From the NCBI GenBank assembly GCA_002070415.1, contig MWDF01000010.1, positions 1-64,000 of the forward strand: a DNA stretch of 64,000 nt, in the 5' to 3' direction. A program made the position numbers and the translations under genes. This document shows, in pieces, positions 40,880 through 53,718 of the stretch. Position 1 is the first letter of the stretch. The number at the start of each line of letters is the position of its first letter. This DNA comes from Firmicutes bacterium ADurb.Bin153. Lineage in GTDB: Bacteria; Bacillota; DTU025; MWDF01. The notes beneath the pieces were generated by a model. The model saw nothing but the letters and a program-made list of their open reading frames with translations. It was not told the DNA's origin and searched no databases.

Positions 40880-42406
40880 ATGGCTAATGGGAAAATAAGG
40901 ATAATAGGCATGGGTCCGGGGTCGGAGAAGGCGATTCCCCTTGCGGCGATCGAGGAGGCGTCCTCGTGCGACATCATATTCATCAGGACGCTGGACCATC
41001 CCGGGGCCGGGCGCTTCACCTCCCTGGGACGCGCGTGGGAATCGTTCGACAGGATTTATGAAGAGGCCCCTGACTTCGAGCAGGCCTACGAGAGGATGGC
41101 CGAGACTGTCGTGGGAGCCGCCCTAAAGGGGCAGGAAGTAGCATTCGTCGTACCCGGAAGCCCCGCCGCGGGGGAAGCTGCGGTAAGGGCCGTGACCGGA
41201 AAGGCAGGCATGCTCGGCATAGGCGTGAGCGCAGTCCAGGGGGCGAGCTTCGTGGATGCGTGCGCCATAGCTGCGGGAAGCGACATCCTGCTGGACGGGC
41301 TTGCGGTGATAGGCGCTTTCAGGCTGGACGAGCAGTGGCCCCGGTCCGACAAGGGCAAAAGGTCCCCTTTTCCCGTGCCGCTTCTAATAGGCGAGGTATA
41401 CGACCGCATGATGGCCGGCAATGTAAAGCTCGCCGTGGCGGACGCGTACGGTGACGGGCACACCGTCTTGGTGATAGACGCCGCGGGGGACCCCGAAAGG
41501 GCCTCGGTCAGGAGGATGAAGGCGTACGAGCTCGACAGGGCTGACATGTTCGGTTCGCTTACGTCAGTCTTCGTGCCAAGACCGTCCGACGCGGGGCTTA
41601 CCAGGCCGTGCAGCTGGCCAGCCGACAGGATCGTCGGCATCATGGCAAGGCTAAGGGGCGAGGACGGCTGCCCGTGGGACAAGAAGCAGGACCTTAAGAG
41701 CCTTAGGCCATACGTGCTGGAAGAAGCTTACGAGGTTGCCGGGGCGATCGACGAGGATGACATGGACCATCTGTGCGAGGAGCTGGGCGATCTGCTGCTG
41801 CAGGTGGTGTTCCAGGCCCGGCTGGCAGAGGAGGAAGGCCACTTCGACTTCACCGACGTTGTCGATTCGATATCGGAGAAGCTCATAAGGCGCCACCCCC
41901 ACATATTCGCGGACGTGAAGGCCGACACGGCTGAGAAGGTGCTAAGGAACTGGGAGTACATAAAGCAGCAGGAGAAGGCGGCTAAAAGCGCCGAGGACGG
42001 AGAATCCGGTCCGCCGTCGCTCCTTTCCGGGGTGGCCACGGCGCTTCCGGCGCTCTGGTATTCATCAAAGATGCAGGACAAGGCCGCGAGGGTGGGATTC
42101 GACTGGAAGACGGCCGAGCAGGCGATGGCAAAGGTCCATGAGGAGGTCGGGGAAGTCGAGGCCGTGCTCTCAGGTGACAGGGAAGACCTGGAGGAAGAGC
42201 TAGGCGATCTCATATTCGCCGTGGTGAACGTGGCCAGGCTCTCCAAGATAGATGCCGAGGCGGCCCTTAAGAAGACGGCCGAGAAGTTTAAGAGGCGCTT
42301 CATGTACATAGAAGCGCGCGCGCTTGAGATGGGCGAGAGGCTGGAGGACATGGGCCTTGAGAGGCTGGACGCGCTCTGGGACGAGGCCAAGGAGAACGGC
42401 GTCTAG
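40880..42406 (+). CDS. mazG: Tetrapyrrole-methylase domain / MazG nucleotide pyrophosphohydrolase fusion (YabN-like)
   Basis: A 508-residue house-cleaning NTP pyrophosphohydrolase. The N-terminal 225 residues have a tetrapyrrole methylase fold (IRIIGMGPGSEKAIPLAA, VAFVVPGSPAAGE), of uncertain activity. Two MazG helical repeats follow. The first has the metal motif EEAYEVAGAI and ELGDLLLQVVFQ near CPWDKKQ, and the second EEVGEVEAVL with ELGDLIFAVVNVARL. This is the standard Bacillota YabN arrangement, right after mfd. The spoVT gene normally lying between them is absent. GGAGGACGGGGG precedes the ATG. Confidence 0.95.
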   Translation: MANGKIRIIGMGPGSEKAIPLAAIEEASSCDIIFIRTLDHPGAGRFTSLGRAWESFDRIYEEAPDFEQAYERMAETVVGAALKGQEVAFVVPGSPAAGEAAVRAVTGKAGMLGIGVSAVQGASFVDACAIAAGSDILLDGLAVIGAFRLDEQWPRSDKGKRSPFPVPLLIGEVYDRMMAGNVKLAVADAYGDGHTVLVIDAAGDPERASVRRMKAYELDRADMFGSLTSVFVPRPSDAGLTRPCSWPADRIVGIMARLRGEDGCPWDKKQDLKSLRPYVLEEAYEVAGAIDEDDMDHLCEELGDLLLQVVFQARLAEEEGHFDFTDVVDSISEKLIRRHPHIFADVKADTAEKVLRNWEYIKQQEKAAKSAEDGESGPPSLLSGVATALPALWYSSKMQDKAARVGFDWKTAEQAMAKVHEEVGEVEAVLSGDREDLEEELGDLIFAVVNVARLSKIDAEAALKKTAEKFKRRFMYIEARALEMGERLEDMGLERLDALWDEAKENGV

Positions 42407-42458: not shown

Positions 42459-45158
42459 CTATATATTGGCTAGTTTACTATATAACTCCATTAGGTGCGC
42501 TACCCGTTGAGTTTCAGATCTGAAGGACTTCCCGTAAGCTTTATCTACAAGGCGATCCAATTTTACATGTGCCTTCTTTAAGTCTGGGGGCATACTTGTT
42601 GGGTCATATAGATCCGCTAAAGATGCGTTCGGATATTTTGAGCGGATCTCCAGAATTCTTCCTGCAGCATCTTCTATTTGCTTCTTTAGTGTGCTGGTAG
42701 GATTTGGCCATGGGAAATTATTATAGATCAAGTCTTTTGAGTAGCGATAATCACTTTTTAATCGGCCACCTACGGCTCTCACCCACGCCATATGCATTGC
42801 TGAAGTAAGAATGCCGAATATATAAGAAGATGCAGAAGGAATTGTTCTTATAGCATTACTAGCTAACGTGTTTGGTTCCAGCATTGATATCGGTATATAA
42901 TACCTTGATTCAGAGGAGGTTTCTGGTATTGCTATATATCTGTCATGATGAAATGTTTCTACCTGGAATCTTGTTGGTGTATCAGCCAGTTTGAGTGTCG
43001 ATATCCTCTTGCTGGCCCTCCTGAAATCAACAACTCTATTTACTCTTTCAAGAGCCGCTGGCATCCTTCTTAACTCATCTGGAGGACAATCGCCCAACCA
43101 AAGACAATACCTTCGGCAACCGTTAATCAACTCATCGGCTCCTACCCAGGATCGAAACCAACGCGCTGATAGGGGTTCCTTTTTGATGAATTCATCCATC
43201 TCTTCTTCGGTAAATAGATAATTACCATCATCAATCGGTTGGTTACCGGTTTCAATCTGAGGAACGTCACAAAGAGGTTTGGTTCTACTCATAATCAAAA
43301 TACCCGGCGCATCAACTAGATAAGGATTGATTTCTTTTACAAAACTGCATATAGGCTCAGATTTCGGATCAGCATAATCGAATAAAAGAGCTCTCTTTGC
43401 AGGAATTAGCGAAAATCCAATTATCACACAGTATACAGCAGCTTTATTCTTTGCTTCGTTGCTCCATTTGAAAGTCCTATGCGCGAAATTTATGTGGAGT
43501 CCTTCTTCTAATAAGGGTTTCCATAACACACAGACCTGTTCTCCCTGAGTGATGGAATTCGTTGACACAAGCCCTACTTTGATTTTGGTCCCTTTAATAT
43601 AATCCATTGATTTCCTGTACCAAGCAGCCACATAATCGAGATTCCCTACACCCTTTAAACCATGGAAAACAAGCAGCATATCGTCTTTCTGTTCAGATGA
43701 CATGACCCTTGCGCCAGAGAAGGGCGGATTTCCTAGTATATATGACAGATCCAAGGGTGAAATCAGATCATACCAATCATACCTTAATGCGTTAGTGCAC
43801 TTTATATTTGGCTGGGTGATGAGAGGCAGCCTCGCATAATATTGGCCTATCTGTGCGCTCCATAGCATGTTCATCTGATGGTCCATCAGCCATAATGCAA
43901 CTTGGGCTATCTGGGCAGGGAATTCTTCTATCTCAATTCCGTAGAATTGGTTGACATCTACTATAGATTTGCCTTTGTTGGGAAATTCCATGAGTTGGAA
44001 TCTCTTTGATATCTCTTTGTTTATCTCAATTTCAAGCTTTCTTATTTCCCTGTATGCAAGTACTAGGAAATTACCGCATCCACAGGCTGGGTCCAAAAAC
44101 CTGAGCGATCCCAGTTTATTCCTTAGGTTTATTAAGTCTGATGGAGAATCCAGTACCTTCTCGAATTCCTCATAAAGGTCATCTAGGAAAAGCGGCCGTA
44201 TGACCTTCATTATATTTTCCTCTGAAGTATAATGGGCCCCCAGCGCCCTCCTTTTATCAGTGTCCATAACGCTTTGGAACATCGCCCCGAAAATGGCTGG
44301 TGAAATCAGACCCCAGTCTAATGCGCAGCAATCGAGCAGCATTTGCCTCATCTGCGCATCGAATTTTGCCAAAGGTAGCCGTTCATCGAAGAGGTGCCCA
44401 TTGATATATGGAAATGCATCAAGGGTCGCATCACCAATTGAAAAGCGCTCAGATACAGGTGTATTGAGAGTCTGGAAAAGTGCAGCTAACTGACCGGCAA
44501 GATCAGAGCCATCTGGTCTGGTGTAGATGTCGATATACTCATAAAACTGGCTTTTGCTGAAGATGCTCGCATCATCAGCAAAAAGGCAAAATAGCAGTCT
44601 TACCATGTATACTTCCAGGTTATGCCCAGAATATCCGATAGATTTCAATTTATCGTGGAGCCTACCCATCGCTTCGGCGGCTTTCACGTTGACTGGATTT
44701 TCTCCCTTTGAAAGATACTGCCTGTATCCGCTCATGAAACCGAAGGCGTCGATATTCTTTGAGAGATTCTCGAGTTCGAACTCTACAGACGACCCTCCTA
44801 AGAGATCATAAAGCTTGAACGTGTGAAAATCTGAGACCATTATGAACTTTGGTAACTCATCATCTTTTAAGCCTGGGATATAGTCCCGGACTTGTTCATA
44901 AGCACGGTCCAAAGGAAGCCCGAGTGATTTGTGTTCTATCAAAAGCACGCCTTTCCAAAAGACGTCTATGAAGCCATCTTTACCATCGATCTTCTTTATG
45001 TATTTCTCGTATTGTACATGCCTTCTCCGATCGATCCCGAATACTTCAAAGAACTCATTCCAGAATGTCTGGGCCTCTGCCCGCTCTCGACGTTCTCCTT
45101 GCCATTTCTTTATAAAATGTATTGCCCGTGATCGGATTTCGTTGATTCCTATCGGCAT
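42459..45158 (-). CDS. MmeI-family (type IIL) single-chain restriction-modification enzyme
   Basis: An 899-residue fusion of nuclease, methyltransferase and specificity domain, matching MmeI throughout. The N-terminal PD-(D/E)xK nuclease motif is GFIDVFWKGVLLIEHKS (Asp, then Glu-x-Lys), equivalent to the MmeI nuclease. A helical connector includes RLLFCLFADDASIF, and SPAIFGAMFQSVMD-KRRALGAHYTSE precedes the methyltransferase. Motif I is DPACGCGNFLVLAYRE and motif IV is NPPF (adenine-N6 type). FAHRTFKWSNEA and IPETSSESRYYIP lie before and in the target-recognition domain, which ends with a helical tail. Such enzymes methylate one strand and cut about 20 bases away. The gene is clearly AT-richer with different codon use, indicating transfer. 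GAGGTG precedes the ATG. Confidence 0.96.
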   Translation of the reverse strand: MPIGINEIRSRAIHFIKKWQGERRERAEAQTFWNEFFEVFGIDRRRHVQYEKYIKKIDGKDGFIDVFWKGVLLIEHKSLGLPLDRAYEQVRDYIPGLKDDELPKFIMVSDFHTFKLYDLLGGSSVEFELENLSKNIDAFGFMSGYRQYLSKGENPVNVKAAEAMGRLHDKLKSIGYSGHNLEVYMVRLLFCLFADDASIFSKSQFYEYIDIYTRPDGSDLAGQLAALFQTLNTPVSERFSIGDATLDAFPYINGHLFDERLPLAKFDAQMRQMLLDCCALDWGLISPAIFGAMFQSVMDTDKRRALGAHYTSEENIMKVIRPLFLDDLYEEFEKVLDSPSDLINLRNKLGSLRFLDPACGCGNFLVLAYREIRKLEIEINKEISKRFQLMEFPNKGKSIVDVNQFYGIEIEEFPAQIAQVALWLMDHQMNMLWSAQIGQYYARLPLITQPNIKCTNALRYDWYDLISPLDLSYILGNPPFSGARVMSSEQKDDMLLVFHGLKGVGNLDYVAAWYRKSMDYIKGTKIKVGLVSTNSITQGEQVCVLWKPLLEEGLHINFAHRTFKWSNEAKNKAAVYCVIIGFSLIPAKRALLFDYADPKSEPICSFVKEINPYLVDAPGILIMSRTKPLCDVPQIETGNQPIDDGNYLFTEEEMDEFIKKEPLSARWFRSWVGADELINGCRRYCLWLGDCPPDELRRMPAALERVNRVVDFRRASKRISTLKLADTPTRFQVETFHHDRYIAIPETSSESRYYIPISMLEPNTLASNAIRTIPSASSYIFGILTSAMHMAWVRAVGGRLKSDYRYSKDLIYNNFPWPNPTSTLKKQIEDAAGRILEIRSKYPNASLADLYDPTSMPPDLKKAHVKLDRLVDKAYGKSFRSETQRVAHLMELYSKLANI

Positions 45159-48429: not shown

Positions 48430-49314
48430 ATGATCGGCAGGGCGAGGGACAGAAGGACGATCAGGTCAAGGTACGGCGCGGCTCCGAAAGGAAGCCCGCC
48501 TCTTTCGGCACTGACGGCACTGGGGCATTTCCTCGCGGGGCCTTTCATCGTACTGGCCGGCATCTTCACATCAAGGGTGGTCCCGGGCAGGCGCCACATA
48601 GTCGCGGTGCTGACGATGGGCATGTTGGCCGCGGGATTCGCATGGGCGGGCAGTTTTGCGGTCGACGGCTGGATGGACAGGAACCTTCAGGCGCTGGGAA
48701 GGTACACCGAAGCTTCGGTCGAGGTGAAGGACGCGCCGTTCGCTGACATCATAAACGTTGAGGCGGTAAGGGCCGGCGTCGACCCGACGCTGGTGGCGGC
48801 CATGATATCCCAGCAGAGCGGTTGGCAATCGGAGAGCGTTTCGTGGAGGGGCGGCAGGGGGCTGATGAACGTGACGCCTTCCGTCTGGAGGCAGTTCAAC
48901 CCGAACTCGGCCTGCAACGGCGAGCATGCGTCCCCCAAGACAGGCGCCGACTGCATATATGACGTAGAGCAGAACATAAGGACCGGCTGTTCGTACCTAA
49001 GGAATCTGATCGACATGTACGGGGGGAGGATAACCCTAGCGCTTGCGGCGTACGCGAGCGGCATAGACTATGTCGAGGCCTACGAGCAGGCGGGCGGGAC
49101 GGGAGAACCTCCCGCGCCGGCGTTCAGCGAATATTACGGGACGCTCAGGCAGGTGCTGACTTTCTGGCGCGAGGCGAGGTCCGCGGAAGGATCCAGCGAC
49201 GTCGCGGCCGCCCTGAGGCTCATGAGCATAAGGAAAGTGCTCGGATACGTCGCGGCGGGGCTGAGCGGCCTGATGTTGCTCTGGGCCGCGTTAAGGTATA
49301 GGCCGGGGGTGTGA
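48430..49314 (+). CDS. Membrane protein with transglycosylase (SLT)-like fold lacking the catalytic Glu
   Basis: A 294-residue protein. A membrane segment lies at about 45-80 (IVAVLTMGMLAAGFAWAGSF). A lysozyme-like domain covers about 100-235: INVEAVRAGVDPTLVAAMISQQSGWQ, then SWRGGRGLMNVTPSVWRQF, then NIRTGCSYLRNLIDMYGG and ALAAYASGIDYVEAY. These are the SLT family blocks (QESGF, GARGLMQ, NI..G..YL, LAAYNAG). The catalytic Glu of QESG is Gln here (CAG, codon at 48814-48816), so cleavage is doubtful. Another helix closes the C-terminus. The ATG at 48430 follows GAGGAGG; divIC starts 4 bases later. Confidence 0.78.
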   Translation: MIGRARDRRTIRSRYGAAPKGSPPLSALTALGHFLAGPFIVLAGIFTSRVVPGRRHIVAVLTMGMLAAGFAWAGSFAVDGWMDRNLQALGRYTEASVEVKDAPFADIINVEAVRAGVDPTLVAAMISQQSGWQSESVSWRGGRGLMNVTPSVWRQFNPNSACNGEHASPKTGADCIYDVEQNIRTGCSYLRNLIDMYGGRITLALAAYASGIDYVEAYEQAGGTGEPPAPAFSEYYGTLRQVLTFWREARSAEGSSDVAAALRLMSIRKVLGYVAAGLSGLMLLWAALRYRPGV

Positions 49315-49318
49315 CGGC

Positions 49319-49618
49319 ATGGCCGAGAAGAACGGAAAGAGGCGAGAAAGGCTCGAGAAGGCCGTATACGCGATAAGCATCGCGGTGATTGTCGTATGCC
49401 TTGCGGGAATAACGATATCCTCCATGTGGAGGCTTTCGGAGATCAAGAAGGAGACGGCAAGGCTGGAGCAGGAGCTCGCCTACTGGCAAGGCAAGTTGGA
49501 CGAGGTCGAGAAGGCGATCCAGGAGGCGACGAAGGACGAGACCATCGAGCGCATAGCCAGGGAGAGGCTGGGCCTCGTGTTGCCGGGAGAGACGGTCTAC
49601 ATGCCCAAGGACAAGTGA
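49319..49618 (+). CDS. divIC: Septum formation initiator (FtsB/DivIC family)
   Basis: A 99-residue bitopic division protein. The short basic N-terminus is cytoplasmic, then one membrane helix (AISIAVIVVCLAGITI, about 18-33), a coiled coil (MWRLSEIKKETARLEQELAYWQGKLDEVEKA) and the conserved ERIARERLGLVLPGETVY end. It partners the DivIB/FtsL type proteins of the divisome. The preceding gene's stop is 4 bases upstream. Confidence 0.92.
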   Translation: MAEKNGKRRERLEKAVYAISIAVIVVCLAGITISSMWRLSEIKKETARLEQELAYWQGKLDEVEKAIQEATKDETIERIARERLGLVLPGETVYMPKDK

Positions 49619-49679: not shown

Positions 49680-49708
49680 TTGACTTGTTAACCCTAGGGC
49701 AATATAAT
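49680..49708 (+). promoter_or_regulatory. Sigma-A promoter of the S1-domain gene
   Basis: TTGACT (49680-49685), a 17-base spacer and TATAAT (49703-49708), about 45 bases before the start codon. Confidence 0.85.
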
Positions 49709-49752: not shown

Positions 49753-50160
49753 ATGGTTCCGGCCGTCGGAGAGGTCGTAAGCGGTAAAGTAACCGGAATA
49801 ACGAAATTCGGAGCATTCGTTGACATAGGGAACGGACATACCGGCATGGTCCATATCTCCGAGATAGCTGACGAGTACATAACGGAGATTAGCGACCACC
49901 TGAAGATGGGGGATATAGTCAACGTAAAGGTGATAAACATCAACGGGGAGAAGGTCGGCTTGTCGATAAAGCAGACGCTTCCCAGCTTCATCGCAAGGCA
50001 GGAGGCCAGGAACAGGGCGAGGGACGCGTCCAACATGCAAAATTTCGAGGACAAGTTGGCGAAGTTCATGAAGGACAGCGAAGAACGGCACTCCGACCTC
50101 AGGAAAAGCCAGGATTCGAAGAGGGGCGGGCGGGGGAGCCGCGGAAGCAGGATGTTCTGA
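49753..50160 (+). CDS. yabR: S1 RNA-binding domain protein (YabR-like)
   Basis: A 135-residue protein. The S1 OB-fold domain is residues 1-75 (VGEVVSGKVTGITKFGAFVDIGNGHTGMVHISEIADEYI...DIVNVKVININGEKVGLSIKQT). It is followed by a charged helical and Arg/Gly-rich tail. It occupies the divIC-yabR position of Bacillus but has its own promoter. GGAGGAAA is upstream of the ATG. Confidence 0.93.
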   Translation: MVPAVGEVVSGKVTGITKFGAFVDIGNGHTGMVHISEIADEYITEISDHLKMGDIVNVKVININGEKVGLSIKQTLPSFIARQEARNRARDASNMQNFEDKLAKFMKDSEERHSDLRKSQDSKRGGRGSRGSRMF

Positions 50161-50221: not shown

Positions 50222-50797
50222 ATGGAAGAAAGACTCATCTGCCCTGAACGCAGATGCCCCGTCGGGGACGACAGGAAGACGGCCCGCTTCCAGCTGGGAC
50301 GCGAACCGGAGGGGATGCTGGGCGTGGCGGCGAGGTGCGCCTACGGCGCGCCCTTTGTGCTGTTGTGCTCACCCGTCGTAATCAGGGAAGGGGGTAAGGC
50401 AGAGCCCTTCCCGACAGTGTACTGGCTGGCATGTCCGTACCTTCGCGACATGATAGGAAATCTCGAAGGCGGCCCCGCTTTCACGCATATCAGGGGGAGG
50501 ATCCGCCGTGACGGCGCGTTCAGGGAGGGCGTCCTGGACTCGGCCGCGAACTACAGGGCGAAGAGGGCCTCACTTTACGAGGACCTTCCCGCCGAAGTCA
50601 AGGGCATGATAAACAAGAACGCAACGAAGAGCCTTCTGGCTGCTGGACCCGGGGGCATAAAGACCTTCGAGAACATCAAGTGCCTCCACATCTACCTTGC
50701 CAACTGGCTGGCCGGAAACGCGGACCCGATAGGCCGGACGGCCGCGGAGTTGATAGCGGACATGGACCGCAGCGCAAGGAAGGAAGCAGACCGCTGA
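50222..50797 (+). CDS. DUF501 family protein
   Basis: A 191-residue protein of the DUF501 family, which in Actinobacteria is often encoded by the gene after divIC. Characteristic blocks are CPVGDDRKTARFQLGREP...GVAARCAYGAPFVLLCSPVV, PFPTVYWLACPYLRDMIGNLEGG and a helical C-terminus with GPGGIKTFENIKCLHIYLANWLAGNADPIG. The paired Cys/His residues suggest a metal or cofactor site. Function is unknown. Start ATG 50222 lies beyond the terminator; a longer frame would start inside it. It may be translated from read-through or a weak local promoter. Confidence 0.9.
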   Translation: MEERLICPERRCPVGDDRKTARFQLGREPEGMLGVAARCAYGAPFVLLCSPVVIREGGKAEPFPTVYWLACPYLRDMIGNLEGGPAFTHIRGRIRRDGAFREGVLDSAANYRAKRASLYEDLPAEVKGMINKNATKSLLAAGPGGIKTFENIKCLHIYLANWLAGNADPIGRTAAELIADMDRSARKEADR

Positions 50798-52062: not shown

Positions 52063-52187
52063 GTTGTTCCTCCCAGAAAATTTCACCTTAAAAGAGGTTA
52101 TAGGCAAATTATATCAAATATAAAATGATGTGCAGAACATGGGCCACACGGGGCGCATTGGCGCCCAAAAGGTGCAAGGAGGTCAAA

Positions 52188-52631
52188 ATGAGAAAGAACA
52201 TTTCAGCCATCATCCTGGCGACGGCTCTGGTGCTGGCGATTTCGGGTACGGCGGCCGCCAAACTGCCGGGGCAGTTTTCCATAAGCGCCAACGGAGGGTA
52301 CATGTTCACCTACGGTGAGCTGGAGCTTGAATACAAGGAAGGCGTAGGGGCGATAGGCCTGAACGTCGGCTCCGACGGGCTCCTCCTGGAGATAGGCGTG
52401 CCTATCAAGTACTTCGTGCCGATAGGCAAGGGCTTCAGCTTCTATGTCGACGTCAACCCCGCGGCGCTGGTGTGGTTCGCTGGACCTTCTGTCGAGTTCG
52501 GCATAAAAGCAGGACCCGGGATCGAATTCAGGTCCGGGTTCTTCAAGGCGATCGTAGAGGGAGGCTACGCCTATTCTGCGACCAGGGGCCACGGCTTCTA
52601 CGCCAAGGGCGGCTTGGGCATTGCGTTCTGA
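52188..52631 (+). CDS. Beta-barrel-like secreted protein, paralogue A
   Basis: A 147-residue product. The signal peptide (MRKNISAIILATALVLAISGTAAA) cuts near residue 24. The mature protein alternates polar and hydrophobic residues in 8-10 short strands: SISANGGYMFTYGELELEYKEG, LEIGVPIKYFVPIG, FYVDVNPAALVWF, EFGIKAGPGIEFRSGF, VEGGYAYSATRGHGFY, and a C-terminal strand AKGGLGIAF ending in Phe. That C-terminal Phe and the repeat pattern are characteristic of outer-membrane beta-barrels. AAGGAGG lies before the ATG. It is the first of three tandem relatives. Confidence 0.75.
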   Translation: MRKNISAIILATALVLAISGTAAAKLPGQFSISANGGYMFTYGELELEYKEGVGAIGLNVGSDGLLLEIGVPIKYFVPIGKGFSFYVDVNPAALVWFAGPSVEFGIKAGPGIEFRSGFFKAIVEGGYAYSATRGHGFYAKGGLGIAF

Positions 52632-52700
52632 TCGTTCGGGCTCCCGCAAAAGGCTCGAGCGATAGATATGGCGATTAATTTGATCAAGGGAGGCAAGAAA

Positions 52701-53171
52701 ATGAAGAGAGTAGCACTAATAGCGTCGCTGGTGGTCATCATGGTGTTGTTTGCGGCCACGATGACACTGGCGGAAGCTCCCGAGATGTCGATCAGCGTTA
52801 ACTCAGGGTACTCATTTACTTGGGCCGAGCTGGAGCTGGAGTACAAGACCGATCCACTGGCGTTCGGCGCGCAGTTGGGCTACGGCTACGGCTTGGAGAT
52901 AGGCGCGTTCGGAAGGTACTATTTCCCTCTCAACAGCTATCTGAACATACCCCCCGAGTACAGGCTGAGCGTGTTTGCGGGCCTCACCCCTTCCCTGCTG
53001 TTGGACTTCATCCCCTCGTTCGCCGCCGGCTTCGGCCTTAAGGTGGGACCCGGGCTCGACTTCAGGTGGAACCAGCTCAGGGTGTATATGGAGAGCGGTT
53101 ATATGCTCTGGGTGAGCGGTGGAGTCTATCATGGCGGATACGGCAAGGCGGGCATCGGCTACATATTCTAG
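52701..53171 (+). CDS. Beta-barrel-like secreted protein, paralogue B
   Basis: A 156-residue relative of A: signal peptide MKRVALIASLVVIMVLFAATMTLA, mature start EAPEMSISVNSGYSFTWAELELEYK. It shares IGAFGRYYFP and KVGPGLDFRW with the next paralogue and ends KAGIGYIF. GGGAGG lies before the ATG. The three genes lie head to tail with 69- and 97-base gaps, probably from duplication. Confidence 0.75.
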   Translation: MKRVALIASLVVIMVLFAATMTLAEAPEMSISVNSGYSFTWAELELEYKTDPLAFGAQLGYGYGLEIGAFGRYYFPLNSYLNIPPEYRLSVFAGLTPSLLLDFIPSFAAGFGLKVGPGLDFRWNQLRVYMESGYMLWVSGGVYHGGYGKAGIGYIF

Positions 53172-53190
53172 GAAGCTCATAGGCATTAGG

Positions 53191-53223
53191 GAAGGGGCGC
53201 CTGGATTCACCGGGCGCCCCTTC
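53191..53223 (+). terminator. Hairpin between paralogues B and C
   Basis: A perfect 11-bp stem (GAAGGGGCGCC / GGCGCCCCTTC) with a 10-11 nt loop. The U tract is missing, so it may act as partial terminator or mRNA stabiliser. Confidence 0.5.
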
Positions 53224-53268
53224 GGCAATGCATGACGCATCAAAGATCTTCAGGACTGGAGGTGGACC

Positions 53269-53718
53269 ATGAGAAAGGTGGCAATAGCATTACCGATGGC
53301 GCTGGCATTGTTGATGGCCCTGAGCGCGGTGACGTTTGCGGCACCGAACGAGTTCATGATAGGGCTGAATTCAGGCTATCCATACACGCTGCTTGAGCTG
53401 GAGTTCGAATACAAGAACGGCCCGTGGGCGGGCGGCGCGGACGTGGCCTGGGCCGGCAATGCGATGGAAATAGGCGCCTTCGGCAGGTACTATGTCCCGC
53501 TCGGCCTCGGCTTCGAGTTCTACGCGGCCCTCAATCCTACGATGGTGATCATCTTCTCTGAAGTGCCGCCTGGTTTAAGAGGGACCATAAAGGCCGGGCC
53601 GGGGTTCGACTTCAGGTGGAAGCACTTAAGGGTCGGGCTCGAAGGAGGCATCCTCTACGTTTTCGGGCACGCTGCGCCGAACTTCTACGTAAAAGGCGGG
53701 GTAGGCGTATTGTTCTAA
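53269..53718 (+). CDS. Beta-barrel-like secreted protein, paralogue C
   Basis: A 149-residue relative. The signal peptide (MRKVAIALPMALALLMALSAVTFA) is followed by APNEFMIGLNSGYPYTLLELEFEYKNG, IGAFGRYYVPLG, FYAALNPTMVI, IKAGPGFDFRWKHL, VGLEGGILYVFG and the terminal KGGVGVLF. Shared with A and B are the first strand (SGY-LELE-EYK), the middle IGxFxRYY-P and the KxGPGxDFR strand. GGAGGTGG precedes the ATG. Confidence 0.75.
   Translation: MRKVAIALPMALALLMALSAVTFAAPNEFMIGLNSGYPYTLLELEFEYKNGPWAGGADVAWAGNAMEIGAFGRYYVPLGLGFEFYAALNPTMVIIFSEVPPGLRGTIKAGPGFDFRWKHLRVGLEGGILYVFGHAAPNFYVKGGVGVLF

Follow-up and report, generated by a model that had tools for sequence, protein, structure and literature searches.

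Lytic transglycosylases of the SLT type, represented by Slt (Slt70), LtgA, MltC, MltE, MltF and MltD, are the closest described relatives of the protein reported here. In MltE, the glutamate at the equivalent of the catalytic position acts as both acid and base (PMC5841429). The titles of the corresponding PDB entries describe Slt E503Q and MltE E64Q as inactive mutants, the latter having been solved with bound chitopentaose according to its title. Dead wall hydrolases that regulate division have already been described among LytM proteins; for example, DipM, a dead LytM-domain protein, acts in division and stimulates the transglycosylase SdpA (PMC10336132). Among the open-access papers listed on the subject, judged by their titles and the openings of their abstracts, none dealt with a naturally dead SLT transglycosylase. 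Another relevant system is the YabP-YabQ cluster of spore-formers, the two genes of which are listed as cortex genes in PMC3533761; the available passages of that article name no SLT gene in the cluster, and no paper describing an SLT gene in a yabQ/divIC cluster was found among those listed.

The window analysed in this study, that is, the whole stretch of 64,000 nt from contig MWDF01000010.1 (GCA_002070415.1) of Firmicutes bacterium ADurb.Bin153 (genome G000), contains an SLT gene, the product of which resembles the above transglycosylases in sequence (PDB profile matches from 2.9e-16) and in predicted fold (VIA-align Z scores from 18.5 to 14). It differs from them in the absence of the catalytic Glu, in changes in motifs II-IV, in predicted membrane segments that flank the domain at both ends and in a Cys/His/Cys insert. 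The Glu-to-Gln replacement is the same as that of Slt E503Q and MltE E64Q at an aligned position (by profile alignment for Slt, by fold match only for MltE), but, unlike these laboratory mutations, it is natural, fixed throughout the genus and accompanied by changes in other motifs. With DipM, the protein shares a hydrolase fold without catalysis, although the two folds are unrelated (DipM has that of a LytM endopeptidase) and the function of DipM is experimental while that of the window protein is inferred. Similar to the YabP-YabQ cluster, relatives in the same order carry the SLT gene between yabP and yabQ, whereas the window's genus has neither of these two genes. The new aspects of the locus are the genus-wide fixation of the change, the apparently repeated loss of Glu at one locus, the selection that has continued after the loss and the probable origin in a sporulation cluster.

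The SLT protein and its predicted fold

The ORF matches Pfam SLT (PF01464) with 58.2 bits against a curated cut-off of 21.3, which bears out the SLT domain that the original prediction had assigned to it (Table 1). No NCBIfam model scored above its cut-off for the protein, and no relative was found among the viral contigs searched. Translation probably starts at ATG 48430 rather than at ATG 48409, since this Met is conserved in both other genomes from the genus and is preceded by GAGGAGG at a distance of 6 nt. Residue numbers used below and in Table 1 count from ATG 48409 (Gln136 is Gln129 when counted from ATG 48430).

The AlphaFold model of the protein (mean pLDDT 76.7, pTM 0.58) has a pLDDT of about 94 across most of the SLT domain, but of 59 at residues 171-180. 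In a Foldseek search, it matched solved transglycosylases with E values from 7.9e-6, and the best VIA-align match was to 5mpq (Z 18.5, rmsd 2.6, 144 residues, within residues 107-260). The domain is thus predicted to have a lysozyme-like transglycosylase fold. Of the 36 full family rows, only that of G284 lacks the Cys/His/Cys insert. The insert has the form Cys-x3-His...Cys across the family and is a candidate disulfide or metal site; an extra Cys is found in many relatives.

Table 1. Features of the SLT locus in the window
Feature	Coordinates	Strand	Basis or remark
mazG, upstream end of conserved cluster	40880..42406	+	Pfam MazG 2.5e-42; synteny
SLT-domain gene (putative pseudo-transglycosylase)	48430..49314	+	Pfam SLT 7.7e-16; 294 aa from ATG 48430, 301 aa from ATG 48409
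First hydrophobic segment, residues 32-55, with conserved Pro45	48502..48573	+	predicted re-entrant helix
Predicted transmembrane helix, residues 62-85	48592..48663	+	hydropathy; AlphaFold helix 62-96
SLT domain, about residues 106-235	48724..49113	+	Pfam 115-227; AlphaFold model matches transglycosylases
Catalytic codon CAG, Gln136 (Glu in relatives)	48814..48816	+	aligned with Slt Glu503
Motif II, Asn154: GLMN vs GLMQ in relatives	48868..48870	+	alignment
Insert with Cys169, His173 and Cys182	48913..48954	+	kept in family
Motif III: AYASG vs AYNAG in relatives	49048..49062	+	alignment
Motif IV: EYYGT vs ET..Y in relatives	49129..49143	+	alignment
Predicted C-terminal transmembrane helix, residues 272-296	49222..49296	+	hydropathy; AlphaFold helix 240-296
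divIC	49319..49618	+	Pfam DivIC 2.7e-12
S1-domain (YabR-like) gene	49753..50160	+	Pfam S1 1.6e-20
DUF501 gene, ATG 50222 (listed ORF opens at TTG 50186)	50222..50797	+	Pfam DUF501 4.8e-29

Loss of the catalytic Glu and changes in other motifs

Profile alignment placed Gln136 at Glu503 of Pseudomonas Slt, and the codon is indeed CAG as had been claimed from the sequence. The Glu-Ser pair of active lytic transglycosylases is therefore Gln136-Ser137 in the window protein. None of the motifs GLMQ, AYNAG and ET..Y of active lytic transglycosylases is found in that form in the protein, the versions given in Table 1 being those of the whole genus, whereas Ser137, Ser145, Met153, Tyr215 and the residues of the insert are retained.

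Similar changes were observed in the other Glu-less copies of the order. In all four, the Glu-Thr of motif IV is gone, although motif IV is less surely aligned in these copies because it sits in a variable loop; motif III is altered in three of them, the exception being that of G005. One copy with Glu (G004) nevertheless has YNSS as motif III and EP..H as motif IV, and only those of G003 and G011 look fully intact among the 10 copies of the order.

Considering the role of the Glu in MltE and the inactive Slt E503Q and MltE E64Q mutants, the window protein is almost certainly unable to cleave glycan, a loss of activity that follows from the established mechanism. That it is still an active wall enzyme, in which another acid replaces Glu, would fit the retained fold and cleft residues. 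However, the laboratory mutants with this very replacement are titled inactive, motifs II-IV have changed as well and no substitute acid was identified (a three-dimensional search was not made), so that we regard continued activity as very improbable. The changes in motifs II, III and IV also mean that glycan binding may have been lost, and the case for binding by the window protein appears somewhat weakened by them.

Distribution of the Glu loss

The order to which the strain belongs is represented by 12 genomes (G000-G011), which were searched with profiles; a search of the class yielded the identical 12. In 10 of them, the residue at the catalytic site was readable. It is Gln in the first three (G000-G002), Ser in two (G005 and G008), Gly in G006, Val in G007 and Glu in the remaining three (G003, G004 and G011). 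The copy of G009 ends at a contig end before the site, and the profile search found no copy in G010.

The three Gln-bearing genomes constitute the genus of the window, and all three have the same CAG codon, with proteins 92 and 77% identical to that of the window. A sequencing or assembly error as the source of Gln, for which we found no supporting point, is ruled out for practical purposes by this agreement between separate genomes.

Outside the order, Glu is universal in what was searched. A sample of 398 genomes from the larger phylum gave 37 matches at E values up to 1e-30, and all 27 copies from outside the order have Glu, including that of G284, a doubtful family member that has one internal stop and lacks the Cys/His/Cys residues. 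Glu is also present in all nine SLT paralogues found within the order. In a general scan for SLT domains with patterns that omit the Glu, at least 80 loci were kept among the matches listed; Glu-Ser was found in all 69 that were read, while 11 were not read. The loss of Glu is therefore rare; among the copies examined, it was seen at no other locus and in no other order. The original prediction had held that Glu in relatives would make the Gln a local mutation or an error. The outcome is mixed: Glu is indeed found in more remote relatives, but Gln is old and genus-wide, and a second clade appears to have lost Glu separately.

Number of losses

The number of losses was addressed by phylogenetic trees. 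A five-protein tree had weak support, and a single Glu-less clade was not rejected (AU test, p = 0.297). When RpoB and RpoC were added (seven proteins, 4,277 columns), the genus was placed outside the other members of the order with a support of 100, and G005-G008 formed one clade (support 91) in the midst of genomes with Glu. This data set rejected a single ancestral loss (AU p = 2.2e-12), which was also disfavoured when the outgroups were removed (p = 0.032). The genus is on a long branch, and some pull towards the outgroup is possible in these trees, from which G010 was omitted. They also contain several gaps: G007 is represented by only 18 aa of RpoB and 585 aa of RpoC and G002 by 470 aa of RpoB, while G009 lacks DivIC, S1 and DUF501, G011 lacks Mfd, RpoB and RpoC, G012 lacks Mfd and MazG, and G050 lacks Mfd. 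The family labels of the database agree with the tree, in that one family (f1) is the genus and another (f3) unites G004 and G011 with the second clade. Two independent losses are the count best supported by these analyses. That the second clade later diversified to Ser, Val and Gly fits a site that catalysis no longer constrains.

As a separate observation on rpoB, G010 contains two tandem copies (C384:1-6302) and G009 more than one stretch of the gene (C78 and C155); both genomes belong to genus g7.

Selection on the Gln-bearing protein

Over the SLT domain, dN/dS ratios calculated by the Nei-Gojobori method are 0.02 for G000-G001, 0.11 for G000-G002 and 0.07 for G001-G002, similar to those of Glu-bearing relatives (0.02-0.14 in the four of five pairs with usable dS; the pair G374-G313 gave no dS over the domain). 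For comparison, mfd has ratios of 0.10-0.16 within the genus. All of these ratios are rough, because dS is close to 1 or exceeds it in several pairs, where synonymous sites approach saturation. The second Glu-less clade seems somewhat relaxed, with 0.13 for the Ser pair and 0.22 for the Val/Gly pair. Since the ratios within the genus are like those of Glu-bearing relatives, the Gln-bearing protein is, with good support, under purifying selection of ordinary strength.

These values bear on the possibility that the SLT gene is a decaying, functionless relic of a sporulation cluster. Several of its catalytic motifs have changed, four sporulation markers are absent from the genus (see below) and the second Glu-less clade reaches a ratio of 0.22, all of which would fit a relic; however, the reading frames are intact in all three genomes of the genus and the ratios of the domain lie within the Glu-bearing range. 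Pseudogene decay was judged unlikely from dN/dS, and we consider a relic improbable.

Membrane segments

The original prediction of membrane helices on both sides of the SLT domain agrees with the hydropathy profile, which has peaks over residues 31-60, 63-85 and 276-296. The first hydrophobic segment contains a Pro in all 36 rows compared (those of G149 and G284 and the truncated piece of G011 were excluded), preceded by Ser in 32, and mostly has basic flanks on both sides; in the genus, the Pro is preceded by Gly or Ala (Gly in the window). The AlphaFold model draws the segment as a single helix of residues 32-55. In its hydrophobicity, central Ser-Pro and basic N-terminal flank, the segment is similar to the re-entrant helix of PglC (PMC6133551), although the analogy extends to this segment only, Gly-Pro or Ala-Pro takes the place of Ser-Pro in the genus, and the segment is followed by a crossing helix in the window protein. 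If the prediction of a re-entrant segment is right, the SLT domain would be outside, between two crossing helices. The segment with the conserved Pro, the predicted crossing helices on both sides and the Cys/His/Cys insert are all features of the SLT family linked to yabP and yabQ, and all are found in the window protein.

Gene neighbourhood and sporulation background

The window's SLT gene lies between mazG and divIC-S1-DUF501, the position that the family occupies in relatives. In relatives from the order, the gene order is mfd, mazG, yabP, SLT, yabQ, divIC, S1 and DUF501; in some of them, mfd is followed by spoVT (identified in G006). Wherever a genome of the order matches YabP (eight genomes), the match is directly upstream of the SLT gene, and in all seven genomes that match YabQ, that match is directly downstream (it spans only the later part of the profile in G006 and G007). 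In 20 of the 36 family pieces (9 of 9 in the order and 11 of 27 outside), divIC accompanies the SLT gene, downstream and on the same strand; in nine more, an S1 gene follows without a divIC match, and neither divIC nor S1 was found after SLT in the other seven. In G276, a SpoIID gene is located upstream of yabP. A link to the mazG-lpqU-eno-divIC gene order of actinobacteria is conceivable.

None of Spo0A, SpoIVA, YabP and YabQ had a match in the three genomes of the genus, the completeness of which is 98% (G001), 89% (G000) and 77% (G002), whereas SpoIVA and Spo0A are present in all nine other genomes of the order. As far as these four markers tell, the genus appears to have lost sporulation. 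Because the second Glu-less clade keeps sporulation markers, loss of sporulation alone cannot explain the loss of Glu.

These findings change the meaning of the proximity to divIC, which the original prediction had read as coupling. The distance is as described, the start of divIC being located 4 nt past the SLT stop codon (49312-49314) and the gene itself scoring as DivIC. However, the SLT gene is a member of the yabP/yabQ cluster, yabQ intervenes in relatives from the order, and the two genes are so close in the window because yabQ is missing; the tight link probably arose on its loss.

Such an inherited gene order is central to another explanation, in which the dead transglycosylase regulates or scaffolds another wall enzyme, such as a Glu-bearing SLT paralogue (contig C1), without being linked to the divisome in particular. 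In favour of this, the cluster order is old and shared with sporulation genes, a Glu-bearing SLT paralogue is present in G000 and G001, and LtgA has been reported to modulate the activity of its partner Ape1 (PMC7083599). On the other hand, SLT is the only one of the cluster's sporulation genes that stayed, now directly before divIC, and G002, the completeness of which is only 77%, yielded no SLT paralogue. We consider this explanation less likely than not.

Proposed function

Our preferred reading, to which we assign a probability of roughly 55%, is that a former sporulation-cluster transglycosylase has become a dead pseudoenzyme anchored in the membrane, which is retained to bind peptidoglycan or to serve as a scaffold, plausibly in association with the divisome. 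A dead site under constraint appears well supported by the comparisons described above, while glycan binding and a partnership with DivIC are what we infer. The ancestor would have been a catalytically competent transglycosylase whose gene belonged to the yabP-SLT-yabQ-divIC cluster seen in spore-forming relatives. In the window lineage, the tested sporulation genes, including yabP and yabQ, would have disappeared, the acid/base Glu would have been replaced by Gln and the other catalytic motifs would have changed, with the protein being kept under selection. Anchored by a crossing helix at either end and by the putative re-entrant segment near the N-terminus, the SLT domain would face peptidoglycan, and the present role may be that of a tethered binding or scaffolding subunit in envelope assembly that does not cut. 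The septum is a plausible site of action, together with DivIC, the operon neighbour. DipM and LtgA, which act on partner proteins, are precedents for such a role. Of the original proposal, a dead pseudoenzyme is well supported by the genus-wide Gln, the other motif changes and the purifying selection on the domain, whereas the link to divIC carries less weight than it first seems to; the protein may act in the divisome.

A more specific version, which we regard as tentative and on balance doubtful, is that the cortex-cluster transglycosylase became, on loss of sporulation, a non-catalytic tethered peptidoglycan sensor or clamp of the divisome with DivIC, and that the same residue was lost again in a spore-forming sister clade. 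If this were true, the locus would represent a repeated route from a wall-cutting enzyme to a structural subunit of division or the envelope. The locus provides a natural counterpart of the inactivating change that was made in Slt and MltE in the laboratory, which is fixed, under selection and accompanied by Glu-bearing close relatives for comparison. Furthermore, a wall gene of a sporulation cluster has been kept after the tested sporulation genes disappeared, and its remaining function is therefore testable.

Other features of the window and the order

A sigma-70-type promoter match (11 of 12) is present at 49680-49708 (+), ahead of the S1 gene, and S1-DUF501 and SLT-divIC may form separate transcription units; the search gave two promoter-like sites, compared with a mean of 1.0 in shuffles. 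An MmeI-type restriction-methylase gene (42459-45158, -) lies between mazG and an ABC transporter pair and is not there in G001 and G002. The region at 52125-53718 (+) encodes three tandem, similar, small and secreted-looking proteins that end in Phe and have no Pfam match; these are possibly outer-membrane barrels. An Omp85 match above the cut-off was found in all 12 genomes of the order (at G000:C33:123-992 in that of the window); Spo0A and SpoIVA are present as well in nine of these. The order looks like a diderm spore-forming lineage with a non-sporulating genus inside it.
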